The notes under the pieces were generated by a model that saw only the letters and a list, made by a program, of their open reading frames with translations, was not told where the DNA came from and did not search any database. From Zetaproteobacteria bacterium CG1_02_55_237 (GTDB lineage: Bacteria > Pseudomonadota > Zetaproteobacteria > Mariprofundales > Mariprofundaceae), in assembly GCA_001871195.1 (NCBI GenBank), contig MNXA01000036.1:1-47404 (forward strand): 47,404 nt of DNA, in the 5' to 3' direction. The position numbers were made by a program, and so were the translations under genes. Positions 41,546 through 47,404 of the stretch are shown here, piece after piece (position 1 is the stretch's first letter; every line of letters begins with the position of its first letter).

Positions 41546-43255
41546 ATGCCGAGAAATAACCTGATCATCCGAATCGCCGGCGACGGAGGCGAAGGCATCA
41601 TCTCTACCGGCGATTTTATCGCTGCTGCCTGTGCCCGCTCGGGGCTTGAGGTATACACCTTCAAAACCTTCCCCGCCGAGGTGCGCGGCGGCTACGCCAT
41701 GTATCAGGTACGTACCGGAAGCGAAGCGCTGCACAATCCGGGTAACACCTTCGATATCTTCTGCGCCCTGAACAGCGAGGCGTATGAAATCAATCGTGAG
41801 CGCCTTCTGCCCGGCACGGCAGTGGTTTATGACGACAGCTTTTCTCCGGAGATTCCCGAGGGTGTGCATGCCTATCCCATCCCGATGACCGTAACCTCCA
41901 AACAACTGGGATTGAAAAAGGCCAAGAACATGGTGGCGCTCGGTGCCCTGTCCCACCTCTTCGGCATCCCCGCCAAGGCCCTGAAGATGGTGCTTGCCGA
42001 TACCTTCGCCTCCAAGGGTGAGGATGTGGTGCAGGCCAATCTGGCGGCCTTTGAGAAGGGGGCGGAGCATGCGGAAGAACTGAGCAAAACGGATGACTGG
42101 CGGCTACCCGAAGGTAGTGAGGTCAAGGACGTCATTATGCTGTCAGGCAATGAGGCCATCGGCCTTGGTGCACTGATTGCGGGACTGGGTTTCTATTCGG
42201 CCTATCCCATTACACCTGCCAGCGAGATTGCCAAATATCTGGCCGTGAACCTGCCCAAGATGGGTGGAACGCTGATTCAGGCCGAGGATGAAATTGCCTC
42301 GATTTCGCAGGTGGTCGGCGCATCCTTTGCCGGCAAAAAGGCCATGACCGCCACCAGCGGGCCGGGCCTGTCGCTGATGAGCGAGATGCTGGGCTTTGCC
42401 TTCATGAGCGAAACCCCGGTGGTGGTGGTCAATGTGCAGCGCGGCGGCCCTTCCACAGGCCTGCCCACCAAGCATGAGCAATCCGATCTGTTCGCCGCCG
42501 TATATGGCAGCCACGGCGATGCCGCGCGCATCGTGCTCTCGGTGGAAAATGTGGCCGACTGTGTCTCGATGAGCGTGGATGCACTGAATCTGGCCGAAAC
42601 CTATGCCTGCCCGGTTATTCTGCTCTCCGAAAGCTCGCTGGCCTTTTCATCGCAAACCATCGCAGCACCAGATCCGGATAGCATCGAAGTAGTCGAACGC
42701 AAACGCTGGGATGGTGAAGGCGAATACCAGCGTTATGCCATGACCGAGGATTTCATCTCGCCCATGGCCGATCCGGGCACGCCCTGCGCCCTGCATATCG
42801 CCACGGGACTGGAGCACGATGAGGTTGGCACGCCGAACTATGCGGCAACCAACCACGAGGCCATGAATGCCAAGCGCTTCGATAAACTTAAAGCCCTGCC
42901 GGATGCATACAGGCCCGTCGAGATTGATGGCAAGGCAAAAGAGCAGGCCGATGTCGGCATTATTGCCTGGGGCAGCACCATCGGCGTGGTGCGCGAGGCC
43001 ATTGCACATCTGAAAGCCGATGGCGTGCATGTGAAGGGTTTTTATCCCAAGCTGATCTGGCCGATGCAGGTGGCACAGTTCGAGGCCTTCGCCAAAACAT
43101 GCAAGACCGTGCTGGTCGTCGAGGTCAACCATCAGGGGCAACTGGCGCAGCTCATCCGGGCGCAGACCGCGATCAAGCCCGTATCGCATGCCGTGTGCAG
43201 CGGTCTGCCATTCACGCCGAAGCAGATCGGGACCAAGGTCAGGGAACTGCTATGA
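41546..43255 (+). CDS. korA: 2-oxoacid:ferredoxin oxidoreductase subunit alpha (gamma-alpha fusion)
   Basis: 569 residues. N-terminal gamma domain (about 1-185) with GDGGEGIISTGDFIAAACA and FPAEVRGGYAMYQVR. Alpha pyrimidine-binding domain (about 195-420) with YPITPASEIA, QAEDEIASI and TATSGPGLSLM. C-terminal CoA-related domain. With KorB it would convert 2-oxoglutarate (or another 2-oxoacid) and CoA to the acyl-CoA with ferredoxin reduction, or the reverse carboxylation. The substrate is not decided by sequence. ATG 41546 begins the typical domain; the ribosome site is weak. Ends in ATGA overlap with korB. Confidence 0.9.
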   Translation: MPRNNLIIRIAGDGGEGIISTGDFIAAACARSGLEVYTFKTFPAEVRGGYAMYQVRTGSEALHNPGNTFDIFCALNSEAYEINRERLLPGTAVVYDDSFSPEIPEGVHAYPIPMTVTSKQLGLKKAKNMVALGALSHLFGIPAKALKMVLADTFASKGEDVVQANLAAFEKGAEHAEELSKTDDWRLPEGSEVKDVIMLSGNEAIGLGALIAGLGFYSAYPITPASEIAKYLAVNLPKMGGTLIQAEDEIASISQVVGASFAGKKAMTATSGPGLSLMSEMLGFAFMSETPVVVVNVQRGGPSTGLPTKHEQSDLFAAVYGSHGDAARIVLSVENVADCVSMSVDALNLAETYACPVILLSESSLAFSSQTIAAPDPDSIEVVERKRWDGEGEYQRYAMTEDFISPMADPGTPCALHIATGLEHDEVGTPNYAATNHEAMNAKRFDKLKALPDAYRPVEIDGKAKEQADVGIIAWGSTIGVVREAIAHLKADGVHVKGFYPKLIWPMQVAQFEAFAKTCKTVLVVEVNHQGQLAQLIRAQTAIKPVSHAVCSGLPFTPKQIGTKVRELL

Positions 43256-44142
43256 ACAAGGAAGAAGTTGTGAGTGATACGATTCCTATCAAACCCATGC
43301 GCCCCAAGGACTACGAATCGGGCGTGCATCCGGTGTGGTGTGCCGGCTGCGGCAACTACGGCGTGCTCTCCGGCGTATACCGTGCGCTGGCTGAGTTGAA
43401 TATCGACCCGACCAATCTGGTCAATGTATCGGGCATCGGCTGCTCCTCACGCCTGCCCTACTTCCTCAAGGCCTACAAGATGCACACCCTGCACGGGCGT
43501 GCCGGCCCCGTGGCCACAGGCGTACAGCTGGCGCGGCCGGATCTCGACGTGCTGGTGTCTGGCGGCGACGGCGACGGCTTCTCCATCGGCGGCGGTCACA
43601 TGCCGCATCTGGCACGCACCAATGTGAATCTCACCTATGTGCTGATGGATAATCACATCTACGGCCTGACCAAGGGGCAAAGCTCGCCCACCTCACGCCG
43701 CGATATGAAGGCCTACACCACCCCCTACGGCGGTATCGAGGAACCGATGCGCCCATTGCTCTATATGCTCACCTACGGCGCCACTTATGTGGCCCAAGCG
43801 TACTCCGGCAATGCCAAGATGTGTGCCGAGCTGATCAAGGGCGGTCTGGAGCATAAGGGCTTTGCCTATATCCATATCCTCAGCCCCTGCATCACCTTCA
43901 ACAAGGTCGATACTGCCGATTACTTCAAGGGCATCATCAAGGATATTCCGGAAAAGCACGACATAAGCGATCTGCACAAGGCCATGCACCTGATCTACAA
44001 GTTCAAGGACAAGGAACCTGTCGGTCTGCTCTACAAGAGCCACCGCCCGACCCTGGATGTCATCATGGCCGACCTCGTCAGGCAGGCTGGTGGCTCGAAG
44101 CACTACGACATCCGCAAGATCATCGATCAAGCGCGCCCGTAG
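43252..44142 (+). CDS. korB: 2-oxoacid:ferredoxin oxidoreductase subunit beta
   Basis: 296 residues. Four cysteines for the proximal [4Fe-4S] cluster are in WCAGCG, GIGCSS and LSPCITF. The thiamine-diphosphate motif is GGDGDGFSIGG with DNHIYGLTKGQSSPTS. It forms the TPP/electron-exit subunit with KorA. The frame opens farther upstream inside korA, but ATG 43252 overlaps the korA stop and starts MNKEEVV. Its last 80 bases are repeated exactly at 46433-46512. Confidence 0.93.
   Translation: MNKEEVVSDTIPIKPMRPKDYESGVHPVWCAGCGNYGVLSGVYRALAELNIDPTNLVNVSGIGCSSRLPYFLKAYKMHTLHGRAGPVATGVQLARPDLDVLVSGGDGDGFSIGGGHMPHLARTNVNLTYVLMDNHIYGLTKGQSSPTSRRDMKAYTTPYGGIEEPMRPLLYMLTYGATYVAQAYSGNAKMCAELIKGGLEHKGFAYIHILSPCITFNKVDTADYFKGIIKDIPEKHDISDLHKAMHLIYKFKDKEPVGLLYKSHRPTLDVIMADLVRQAGGSKHYDIRKIIDQARP
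44063..44142 (+). repeat. 80-bp direct repeat, left copy (3' end of korB)
   Basis: The final 80 bases of korB, including the TAG stop, match 46433-46512 at all 80 positions in the same orientation. The identity begins TCATGGCC and ends GCGCCCGTAG. Bases outside the repeat differ at once. The two copies are offset by 2370 bases and enclose one gene. Confidence 0.97.
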
Positions 44143-44222
44143 TCTTATCCCCGGAAGACTCAGTCAGACAAGACCCATCTTTAAGAGAAAGGATTCGAAC
44201 ACCTATTAGGGTTGGGTCATAC

Positions 44223-44251
44223 TTCCAAAGGTGACAGCCATAGACTATAAT
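44223..44251 (+). promoter_or_regulatory. Promoter candidate of the patatin-like gene
   Basis: Perfect TATAAT at 44246-44251 with a poor -35 (TTCCAA, 44223-44228) 17 bases upstream. It is inside the segment between the 80-bp repeats, so the gene would bring its own promoter. Confidence 0.45.
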
Positions 44252-44288
44252 CAGTGCTGACGAGGGATGACACACCGGGGGGGGAAAC

Positions 44289-46421
44289 ATGCCATCGAAT
44301 AATACAAATCAACTCCAGACAAACTCATTGGCTGCGAAAATGCGCGCTTTTTCATATTGCCTGAATCGCGGTCGTTTCAGCATCGTTGTGCTGGCCATCG
44401 GCCTGGGCCTTCTGTTGAGCGATCAGGGGCAGGATCTGCTGATTGGCGATGTCGAGGACGGCAAGATTTGGCAGGACCTGCTGGCGGCAACCGCCTGGGC
44501 CTTCAGCATATGGGGCTGGTGCCGCCTGCTGCTCGATATCCGCTATCATGAGCCGCCGTCCTGCACAGCTTGCTATAACTACTGGCGCAAATGGATGCCG
44601 CGCCTGCTCGGCTCGCTGGCTTTTGTTGTCCTCGCATTTGCTGCGTTCTCTGCCGGGCAATATGCCCTGATGGGATACACCATAGGTGCACTCATAGGCT
44701 TTAGTATCTTTGTCACAGGGCGACGTCGTGCGCAACACAAGGTAGCGACGGCCCTTGGCCGATCCAATTTCAATTTCACCAGGGCAGCGGCAGTCAGACT
44801 CGAAATCAATGATATCGGCATTGAAGATAAGCCTCCCTATTCAAGTTTCGTGGGGGCGCTCGGCGTATCCAGCCCGGCCCAACTCTTCAAGCCCAAACAC
44901 TGGAAGCTCTGGCGTACGGCCCTTGCGATGCTGCTGTTCGCATCCTTTTTGCTTCTGGCCGCCTGGGGCAATCTTGACCCGGTCTCGCAGGGTTCCTATT
45001 TTGGCGCACTCATCCTGTTCTTTATCTGGGGGGCCACCTGGTTACCGGTTGGCAGCCTGATGAGCTACGCAGCCGATAAAAGAGGCCTGCCGCTGCTGAC
45101 ACTTCTTCTGCTTGTCGCTCTGATCTCCAGCTTCTGGAATGACAACCATGAGATTCGCAAATTCGAGAACGGAGTGACAGTCAATGATCGTCCGACCGTT
45201 TCCCAGGCGCTTGAAAATTGGGCCACGGCCAACAAGCTTTCTGCTGAACAGGAAACCCCCTTTGTGGTGGTTGCCACTGCCGGTGGCGGCATCCGCGCCG
45301 CCTATTGGACAGCCACCGTGCTGGGCGACCTGCATGAGAAATCCGCGCAGTTCGCTGAGCGAAATTTTGCCATCAGCGGCGTTTCGGGCGGTTCTGTTGG
45401 CGCGACCGTTTACCGCGCTCTTCTCGAAGTTCCAGCACAGCAGCTCAAGGAACCCTGTTTGCAGGACGGCGTGATGAAATGCACCCAGCGCATTCTGGGA
45501 CACGACTTTCTCGGGCCGAACACCTCGGCCATGCTCTATCCTGATCTGGCCCAGCGATTCTGGCCCTTCCCCTGGTTTCCTGACCGCGCGAAAGCTTTGG
45601 AACAGGGTTGGGAGAGAGCTTTTTATGAAGAAACCGGGATCGACGTGCTGAACACCAGCATAGGCAAACTGGGTGCAAAGGCAGGTACCCCGATGCTGTT
45701 TCTCAATGCCACCTGGGCCGATAACGGCAGGCGCATTGTGGCCAGCAACCTGCGCTTCGGAAGCGAGGATGAAGAAGAGAGGAATACATTCGCCCGCGCC
45801 AAAGATCAGCTGGTGATCCTCGAACGCGATATTCGCATGTCCACAGCGGCGCATAACAGTGCCCGCTTCCCGATGGTCAGCCCGCCGGGCATGTGGAAGC
45901 AAAAGGATAAAATCGCAGGTCGTTTGCAGGACGGTGGCCTGTTCGAGAATTATGGCGCCGAGACTGCATTTGAGATTCTCGACCTGGCCTGCAAGAAGTT
46001 CTCCTGTAACGGGGAAACGCCCAATGGAAAGCAGAGGATCAAACCTGTCGTGATTCTGATCAGCAGCGACCCAGGGTTGCCTCCGGATCTGGCTGAAAGT
46101 CCAACAGACTATGAACCTGTCCGGTTCGGTTACGAGGTACGCTCTACCTTCAAAACCTATGAGAAGGTACGCAGCGGTCGTGCTGCGGAGGAAGCCAGCC
46201 GACTGGAAGCGTGGACCAGAAATGACAACAAAGGCGAGTTTTATCACTTCCGCATGTGCAAGACAGAAGGCGCAGGACAACCTCCGCTCGGCTGGTACCT
46301 GTCCAAATCAGCCCAGAAAACAATTCAATCCTACCTGCTTGATGTAGAGGGAACGGCGCCGGATTGCCGCAAGGTCAATCAGGAAAACGAAAGCTTGCTC
46401 ATTGAAACGCTGAAACTTTAG
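44289..46421 (+). CDS. Membrane-bound patatin-like phospholipase
   Basis: 710 residues. N-terminal half with about six or seven transmembrane helices (near 30-47, 60-82, 105-125, 127-145, 208-226, 236-257 and 267-283). C-terminal patatin domain with oxyanion motif GGGIRAAYW (332-340), nucleophile elbow GVSGG (364-368, Ser366) and DGG (548-550, Asp548), the Ser-Asp dyad. It should cleave acyl esters of lipids at the cytoplasmic membrane face, if active. No cyclase, kinase or other defence partner is adjacent. A G-rich stretch precedes the ATG. It is the only gene between two exact copies of the korB 3' end. Confidence 0.82.
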   Translation: MPSNNTNQLQTNSLAAKMRAFSYCLNRGRFSIVVLAIGLGLLLSDQGQDLLIGDVEDGKIWQDLLAATAWAFSIWGWCRLLLDIRYHEPPSCTACYNYWRKWMPRLLGSLAFVVLAFAAFSAGQYALMGYTIGALIGFSIFVTGRRRAQHKVATALGRSNFNFTRAAAVRLEINDIGIEDKPPYSSFVGALGVSSPAQLFKPKHWKLWRTALAMLLFASFLLLAAWGNLDPVSQGSYFGALILFFIWGATWLPVGSLMSYAADKRGLPLLTLLLLVALISSFWNDNHEIRKFENGVTVNDRPTVSQALENWATANKLSAEQETPFVVVATAGGGIRAAYWTATVLGDLHEKSAQFAERNFAISGVSGGSVGATVYRALLEVPAQQLKEPCLQDGVMKCTQRILGHDFLGPNTSAMLYPDLAQRFWPFPWFPDRAKALEQGWERAFYEETGIDVLNTSIGKLGAKAGTPMLFLNATWADNGRRIVASNLRFGSEDEEERNTFARAKDQLVILERDIRMSTAAHNSARFPMVSPPGMWKQKDKIAGRLQDGGLFENYGAETAFEILDLACKKFSCNGETPNGKQRIKPVVILISSDPGLPPDLAESPTDYEPVRFGYEVRSTFKTYEKVRSGRAAEEASRLEAWTRNDNKGEFYHFRMCKTEGAGQPPLGWYLSKSAQKTIQSYLLDVEGTAPDCRKVNQENESLLIETLKL

Positions 46422-46432
46422 CTGAAGCCCTG

Positions 46433-46512
46433 TCATGGCCGACCTCGTCAGGCAGGCTGGTGGCTCGAAGCACTACGACATCCGCAAGATCATCGATCAA
46501 GCGCGCCCGTAG
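46433..46512 (+). repeat. 80-bp direct repeat, right copy (korB 3' end fragment)
   Basis: Exact 80/80 copy of 44063-44142. It lacks any upstream korB sequence, ribosome site or start, so it is a non-coding remnant. It begins 12 bases after the patatin-like gene's stop and ends 85 bases before the hemerythrin start. Confidence 0.97.
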
Positions 46513-46597: not shown

Positions 46598-47017
46598 ATG
46601 ATGGAAACGAAACCTTGGGGAACCGAATGGGCAGATGCGCTCAGTATGTCCAATCCGGAAATTGATGCCGAGCACAAGCATTTCATCGATCTGGTCAACA
46701 TGCTCAATCAAGAAATCGCCAGTCAGCAGCGCGATAAGGACAACATCCTGCGCATCATGAAGCTGATTCTGGATGATGCGCTTGCCCACTTCGCGCATGA
46801 GGAACGATTATTCAAGGAAAAAACTTACCCGAAGGCTGTCGAGCACGCCCAAATCCATAAGGAACTCATCAAGGGAATCAAGCAGGGTCTGGAAGATATC
46901 CGTAATACGGATCATATCAGCCGCTGGGTTGAGGTTGGTCTGGCAATCGAGAGCGCTCTGGTTACCCATCTGGTGGAAGAGGACACCAAATACATCGATT
47001 ATCTGCGAACGGAATAA
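46598..47017 (+). CDS. Bacteriohemerythrin
   Basis: 139 residues with the full di-iron ligand set: His26 (DAEHKHF), His64 and Glu68 (HFAHEE), His83 and His87 (YPKAVEHAQIH), His124 and Asp129 (THLVEED). It is a cytoplasmic four-helix bundle that binds oxygen reversibly, for storage, delivery or sensing in microaerophiles. CGGAGAG precedes adjacent ATGs at 46598 and 46601; either may start. A possible -10 TAGAAT lies at 46568-46573. Single-domain, with no fused signalling part. Confidence 0.95.
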   Translation: MMETKPWGTEWADALSMSNPEIDAEHKHFIDLVNMLNQEIASQQRDKDNILRIMKLILDDALAHFAHEERLFKEKTYPKAVEHAQIHKELIKGIKQGLEDIRNTDHISRWVEVGLAIESALVTHLVEEDTKYIDYLRTE

Positions 47018-47108
47018 ATCGCCACTGAAACACCCTCGCTGGCTGACAGTTATTCCTTTACTGCATGCCTTCCTAGGCAATCGGCGCCCACCAAACATTC
47101 GATGTGTT

Positions 47109-47404
47109 GGCAACAAATAGAGTTGTCCGGTTTTAGAGCACAAGGGTTGTCCGGTTTGGTTTTGGTTCATATTGCTGCCTTCAGCCTTGGTAGTGGTAGT
47201 TCCGGCTTGCTGGCCTTGGGCTTCAGAAGAGGCTGAAACTCGGCGAGTTTTCTTGGCCCGTGGAAGATGGCCATGCTGCCATCGGTATAGCAGTGAACAC
47301 GCACTCTGGCTTTGACATAATGGTGTCGGTATTCATTGCTGGGGATTTGCAGGGTTCTGCCCTCAAAGCTGACGGTGTTGTCTTTGTTGACTGTGCGTTC
47401 GTGC
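47109..47404 (-). mobile_element. ISNCY-type insertion sequence, right-hand copy (truncated by window edge)
   Basis: The 3' end of the insertion sequence, starting with GGCAACAAATAGAG and two TTGTCCGG motifs (47122-47130 and 47146-47153) before the transposase stop. Orientation is the same as the left-hand copy. If one element were cut by both window edges, about 290 transposase codons would be missing between the two pieces. Confidence 0.75.
47167..47404 (-). CDS. ISNCY family transposase, C-terminal fragment
   Basis: The last 79 codons of the transposase, entering from the right edge and stopping with TGA at 47167-47169. HERTVNKDNTVSFEGRTLQI and HYVKARVRVHCYTDGSMAIF with FHGPRKLAEF are the conserved C-terminal region after the DDE core in ISNCY-type transposases. 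A Pro/Lys-rich tail ends the protein. The start and catalytic triad lie outside the window. Confidence 0.85.
   Translation of the reverse strand, partial: HERTVNKDNTVSFEGRTLQIPSNEYRHHYVKARVRVHCYTDGSMAIFHGPRKLAEFQPLLKPKASKPELPLPRLKAAI

Follow-up and report, generated by a model that had tools for sequence, protein, structure and literature searches.

A patatin-like gene between identical copies of the korB 3′ end in a zetaproteobacterium: a possible att-flanked cargo without integrase

Introduction

CIMEs are att-flanked elements that have lost their integration and transfer genes (PMC5704250), and in Dehalococcoides 15 ssrA islands are devoid of an integration module (PMC3146451). Between recombining att sites, identity usually extends over 2–60 bp (PMC4701971). 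Here we describe a locus of Zetaproteobacteria bacterium CG1_02_55_237 (GCA_001871195.1), contained in the 47,404-nt stretch of contig MNXA01000036.1 that was analysed as a whole and is called the window below. As in CIMEs, cargo lies between direct copies of the 3′ end of a target gene, with the target intact and no integrase present (PMC5704250), but the locus at korB differs in comprising a single gene, 2.3 kb and an 80-nt repeat, and in that no helper ICE or IME was seen to reside there. In the ssrA islands, too, cargo modules are enclosed by copies of the 3′ end of a gene, and some lack an integrase; these islands are arranged in tandem at the tmRNA gene, with 20-bp repeats and with siblings that encode serine recombinases (PMC3146451), whereas the korB locus is one module at a protein gene, for which no integrase-bearing sibling was found. 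In the literature consulted on such elements, korB was not met as an integration target.

Results

The last 80 nt of korB, including the TAG stop codon at 44140–44142, recur on the same strand with 80/80 identity and a start-to-start spacing of 2370 nt (Table 1), and a similarity search of the genome returned exactly these two copies. The right copy is an orphan korB 3′ end without a start of its own. Both the offset direct copies and the arrangement of an intact korB on the left with an orphan fragment on the right, which had been claimed in an earlier note made from the sequence alone, were thereby confirmed. The final base of the korB stop codon is the exact end of the repeat. Beyond its limits the bases differ between the left and right copies, both upstream (...GGATGTCA|TCATGGCC versus ...AAGCCCTG|TCATGGCC) and downstream (TAG|TCTTATCC versus TAG|CCGGAGAA).

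Table 1. Features of the korB locus, in window coordinates
Feature	Coordinates	Strand	Remarks
korB, 2-oxoacid:ferredoxin oxidoreductase beta subunit, TPP domain	43252..44142	+	intact; Pfam TPP_enzyme_C, PFO_beta_C
Left repeat copy, putative attL core	44063..44142	+	last 25 sense codons of korB, stop codon and the two bases before them; 80/80 to right copy
Leader of inserted gene	44143..44288	+	TATAAT at 44246-44251; G8 tract 44277-44284, 4 nt before ATG
710-aa patatin-like ORF	44289..46421	+	N-terminal hydrophobic segments, C-terminal patatin-type domain
Spacer, patatin stop to right repeat copy	46422..46432	+	11 nt
Right repeat copy, putative attR core, orphan korB 3′ end	46433..46512	+	80/80 to left copy
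Hemerythrin gene, first gene right of duplicated stretch	46598..47017	+	PF01814, E=1.8e-9

Exact direct repeats of at least 22 nt with a spacing within 15 kb were then counted in a 441-kb sample of the same genome (the window and a further 394 kb from other contigs). The others were 22–29 nt long or else tandem and of low complexity, the sole other one above 30 nt being a 48-nt low-complexity tandem at 33-nt spacing. Since no comparable repeat longer than 29 nt occurs in the sample apart from this tandem, a chance origin was rejected; the 80-nt repeat is real as sequence and uncommon for the sampled genome. Comparison with the congener G002 revealed 67 of the 80 positions to be identical (84%), against 73 of 90 in the stretch of korB immediately preceding. 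Being as close to G002 as the rest of the korB end, the repeat is native to the genus and bears no sign of a foreign attP, which we rejected as its source. Core inverted repeats of the tyrosine-recombinase type (arms of 7–13 nt with at most one mismatch, spacer of 4–12 nt) were absent from the 80 nt, and the inverted repeats found at the locus were weak, none of them standing at the element ends.

Between the copies (44143–46432) lie a 146-nt leader, an ORF of 710 codons and 11 nt. The claim that a patatin-like gene with its own −10 stands alone here was upheld in that one ORF fills the interval behind a perfect TATAAT, but no −35 passed the promoter scan. The leader resembled neither the DNA downstream of korB in relatives nor, beyond chance, plasmids or phages. 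Slippage in the G8 tract four bases ahead of the ATG could alter the ribosome-binding spacing; runs of at least eight G or C number only three in the 441-kb sample.

The ORF product matched Pfam PF01734 with E=1.5e-4 and 22.5 bits, below the gathering score of 27.7. Its likeness to patatin-like phospholipases lies in the GGGxR, GxSxG and DGG motifs, which follow each other in the right order (GGGIR at 332, GVSGG at 364 with S366, and DGG at 548 with D548) and supply the Ser-Asp dyad and glycine-rich oxyanion motif of that family; it differs by the sub-gathering score and by an N-terminal hydrophobic region, in which about five hydrophobic segments (residues 106–284) precede the catalytic part. 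All three motifs are invariant across the window ORF and two aligned Thiodiazotropha homologues (44% identity over the alignment). To judge from these motifs and segments, the catalytic dyad is apparently intact and the product is probably a membrane-anchored lipase. A search of solved structures by sequence returned nothing relevant, and an AlphaFold model built from three sequences (pLDDT 40) was too poor for fold assignment. PADLOC gave a weak match to a phospholipase effector (E = 0.0014), and on the Azospirillum lipoferum plasmid AZO_p2 (L122) a distant homologue stands directly behind the gene of a large SIR2-family protein; together these are a hint of a defence role, no more.

The codon usage of the patatin-like gene is host-like (GC3 0.637 versus 0.634 ± 0.056), implying either a donor of similar composition or a residence long enough to adapt. 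A search of 60 relatives gave no counterpart of the gene, no more than two distant homologues came from a draw of 399 genomes of the phylum, and the closest relatives found for the protein were from Thiodiazotropha (41–44% identity). Around the Thiodiazotropha genes no near-identical flanking repeats were detected, those found being 20–23 nt long and at most 85% alike. Plasmids held distant homologues only; phages and IMG/VR gave no match, and the genome itself contained no second patatin remnant.

korB is present in five of the 74 genomes of the family, its own genome counted, and shares 82–84% amino acid identity with korB of G008, G079, G084 and G094. Its downstream neighbour varies by genus: judging from their translations, a toxin-like PIN-type gene follows in G008, a CrcB-like gene in G079, and a large oxidoreductase gene in both G084 and G094. 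Hemerythrin was not beside korB in the relatives examined, no DNA downstream of korB in G008, G079, G084, G094, G002 or G086 was shared with the right flank of the window, and an empty site (korB-TAG-CCGGAGAAATAGG, then hemerythrin) was not seen in any relative compared. Hence the proposal that the korB–hemerythrin junction be compared among relatives was answered on one side, the patatin insert being missing from them, but yielded neither an empty site nor a shared right flank.

None of the other three members of the genus has an intact korB. In G002 (L020 1-7385, contig C9) korA and the greater part of korB are gone. What survives is a korB 3′ remnant of about 170 nt immediately downstream of the lepA promoter region; directly after it come two genes of defence type, the first for a DrmD-like helicase and the second TmtA-like. 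The lepA promoter region and the remnant are joined by a run of ten C. In G086 a decayed korB 3′ remnant stands alone, and the congeners G001 and G003 have no korAB beside lepA. An attR-like partner for the G002 island was sought without any match beyond chance; of the best two candidates, one (18/18 nt) falls in a Mu-like phage region of contig C15 and the other on C5, and both look fortuitous. What adjoins the korB end thus varies across the family, as would fit an integration site, though gene loss by itself might also account for it.

Neither an integrase nor an integrase remnant occurs between the repeats, where one ORF fills the interval, nor are there transfer genes, as in CIMEs; an autonomous IME or ICE would bring its own integrase. 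The absence of an integrase asserted earlier thus holds between the repeats and on to the right end of the contig, but the genome as a whole has four PF00589 genes, among them two phage-type integrases, at groEL and near tRNA-Ser. Beyond the two copies the genome contains no korB-type att site, and therefore none beside any of the four, and our searches of IMG/VR turned up neither a korB-end core nor a korB-bearing provirus. Elsewhere, a 97-aa C-terminal tyrosine recombinase piece on G002 contig C25 (L092 5364-5657) appears to resemble a truncated integron integrase, and G002, G008 and G086 also have full-length recombinase candidates whose catalytic match is longer.

The groEL element (6.9 kb; G000 contig C28, L055 5502-12432) serves as a control within the same genome. 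It is bounded by an 18-nt direct repeat of the groEL end, ATGGGCGGCATGATGTAA, which ends exactly at the groEL stop codon. Besides an integrase with arm, middle and catalytic domains it carries a replication-type protein; a YagK/YfjJ domain is present in one of its proteins, and a 444-aa ORF matches nothing in Pfam. Like the korB locus, it thus combines a protein-gene 3′-end repeat stopping at the stop codon with an intact host gene; it differs by having the integrase and the replication-type protein and by its shorter repeat (18 versus 80 nt).

With no changes in 80 nt, the rule of three bounds the divergence of the copies at about 3.7% (95%), which, set against the 84% identity to G002, places the event after the split from that congener unless conversion has reset the copies. 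The description of the event as recent is therefore tenable as younger than the G002 split, but weakly so, as conversion could reset the bound, and it does not imply an ongoing event.

Discussion

We tentatively read positions 44063–46512 as an att-flanked single-gene cargo without integrase, comparable to a CIME, and give this reading a probability of roughly 0.45. Site-specific integration of the tyrosine-recombinase type, with a presumed recombinase, would have taken place in the korB 3′ end; the arriving element would have carried a copy of that end, which would have kept korB complete, while the end that it displaced would now form the right copy. The present layout would accordingly run from attL (the left 80 nt, completing korB) through the patatin-like lipase gene to attR (the right 80 nt), the integrase having been lost or, as in CIMEs, always supplied in trans. 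On this reading the element would once have been circular and may still be able to excise, and its gene would encode an active lipase.

The strongest argument for integration is the end of the repeat at the stop codon, which fits restoration of the gene end by a copy borne on attP, whereas a random duplication would rarely end there. The groEL control, the absence of the patatin-like gene from the sampled relatives and the variable korB junction in G002 lend further support. Against it stand the length of 80 nt, beyond the 2–60 bp usual for att identity (PMC4701971), the lack of an integrase or integrase remnant between the repeats, the host-like codon usage and the identical, genus-native copies, as well as the lack of a korB-type att at the four PF00589 genes, of comparable repeats around the Thiodiazotropha homologues, of an attR-like partner in G002 beyond chance matches and of a korB-bearing provirus in our IMG/VR searches. 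The integration proposed in the earlier note is partly supported, by a geometry that duplicates a gene end and leaves korB intact, by the lack of the insert in the sampled relatives and of an integrase between the repeats, and by the groEL precedent; the circular DNA, helper dependence and excision that the note envisaged are putative, and duplication in situ is a serious rival. Should the locus prove to be att-flanked cargo, korB would be added to the protein genes used as landing sites at their 3′ ends; the locus would also illustrate the small size that a passenger of this kind can have, and would offer a marker for finding the missing recombinase.

Duplication without a recombinase, somewhat unlikely when taken by itself, is a close second. 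Here the patatin-like gene would already have stood behind korB, or been brought there by illegitimate repair, and template switching would have placed a copy of the korB 3′ end behind it; alternatively, a tandem of repeat-patatin-repeat-patatin would have lost its second patatin gene. Two identical, genus-native copies are explained at least as well by such a duplication inside the genome, the host-like codon usage and the site free of recombinase agree with it, and the orphan korB 3′ ends of G002 and G086, where korB is gone, indicate that rearrangement here is not unique. It requires, however, that the copied piece end by coincidence exactly with the stop codon, and the genome offers neither a second patatin remnant nor, over 441 kb, a comparable dispersed duplication. 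If plain duplication is the answer, the locus cautions that a duplicated gene end is not always the scar of an integration.

An insertion of the Campbell type is unlikely. A non-replicating circle bearing a korB 3′ end and the patatin-like gene, acquired for example by transformation, would have entered by one crossover through about 80 nt of homology; 80 identical nt are within reach of RecA-dependent recombination, and the outcome would be the observed order with korB intact and no integrase needed. Such a donor would need the patatin-like gene already linked to a piece of the korB 3′ end that reaches to the stop codon and no further, and searches of plasmids, phages, IMG/VR and relatives did not find one. 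Taken together, integrase-independent duplication and Campbell-type insertion are as likely as the CIME-like reading. Very unlikely, in our view, is a minimal one-gene mobile cassette that targets korB 3′ ends with the help, in trans, of a recombinase whose gene lies elsewhere; in this genus the korB end would then receive defence-type cargo of more than one kind (patatin here, the DrmD/TmtA-like genes in G002).

Least probable among the alternatives weighed is an effect of assembly, by which a korB–hemerythrin stretch and a separate 2370-nt circle (the 80 nt plus the patatin-like gene), or some other arrangement, were linearised into the present order. The draft assembly comprises 54 contigs, and the repeat is close to common assembly k-mer sizes; where a graph enters and leaves a single 80-nt node by two paths each, only spanning reads can tell the integrated form from the circular one. 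Paired reads normally span 80 nt, however, the assembly otherwise breaks at the multi-copy insertion sequence instead of misjoining, and a true extra circle would still leave the element real. A transposon or insertion sequence with target-site duplication was rejected, there being no transposase and no terminal inverted repeats, and 80 nt being far longer than usual transposon target duplications.

The right flank is visible for about 0.9 kb past the right repeat copy, up to the contig end, which lies inside an insertion sequence. Window positions 47105–47404 are the end of this insertion sequence and include a 78-aa fragment without Pfam match. The insertion sequence is found at 40 places in the genome with 99–100% identity, and at 35 of these the match covers about 300 nt. 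Nearly all copies are located at contig ends, and a large recent expansion of this insertion sequence explains most of the assembly breaks.
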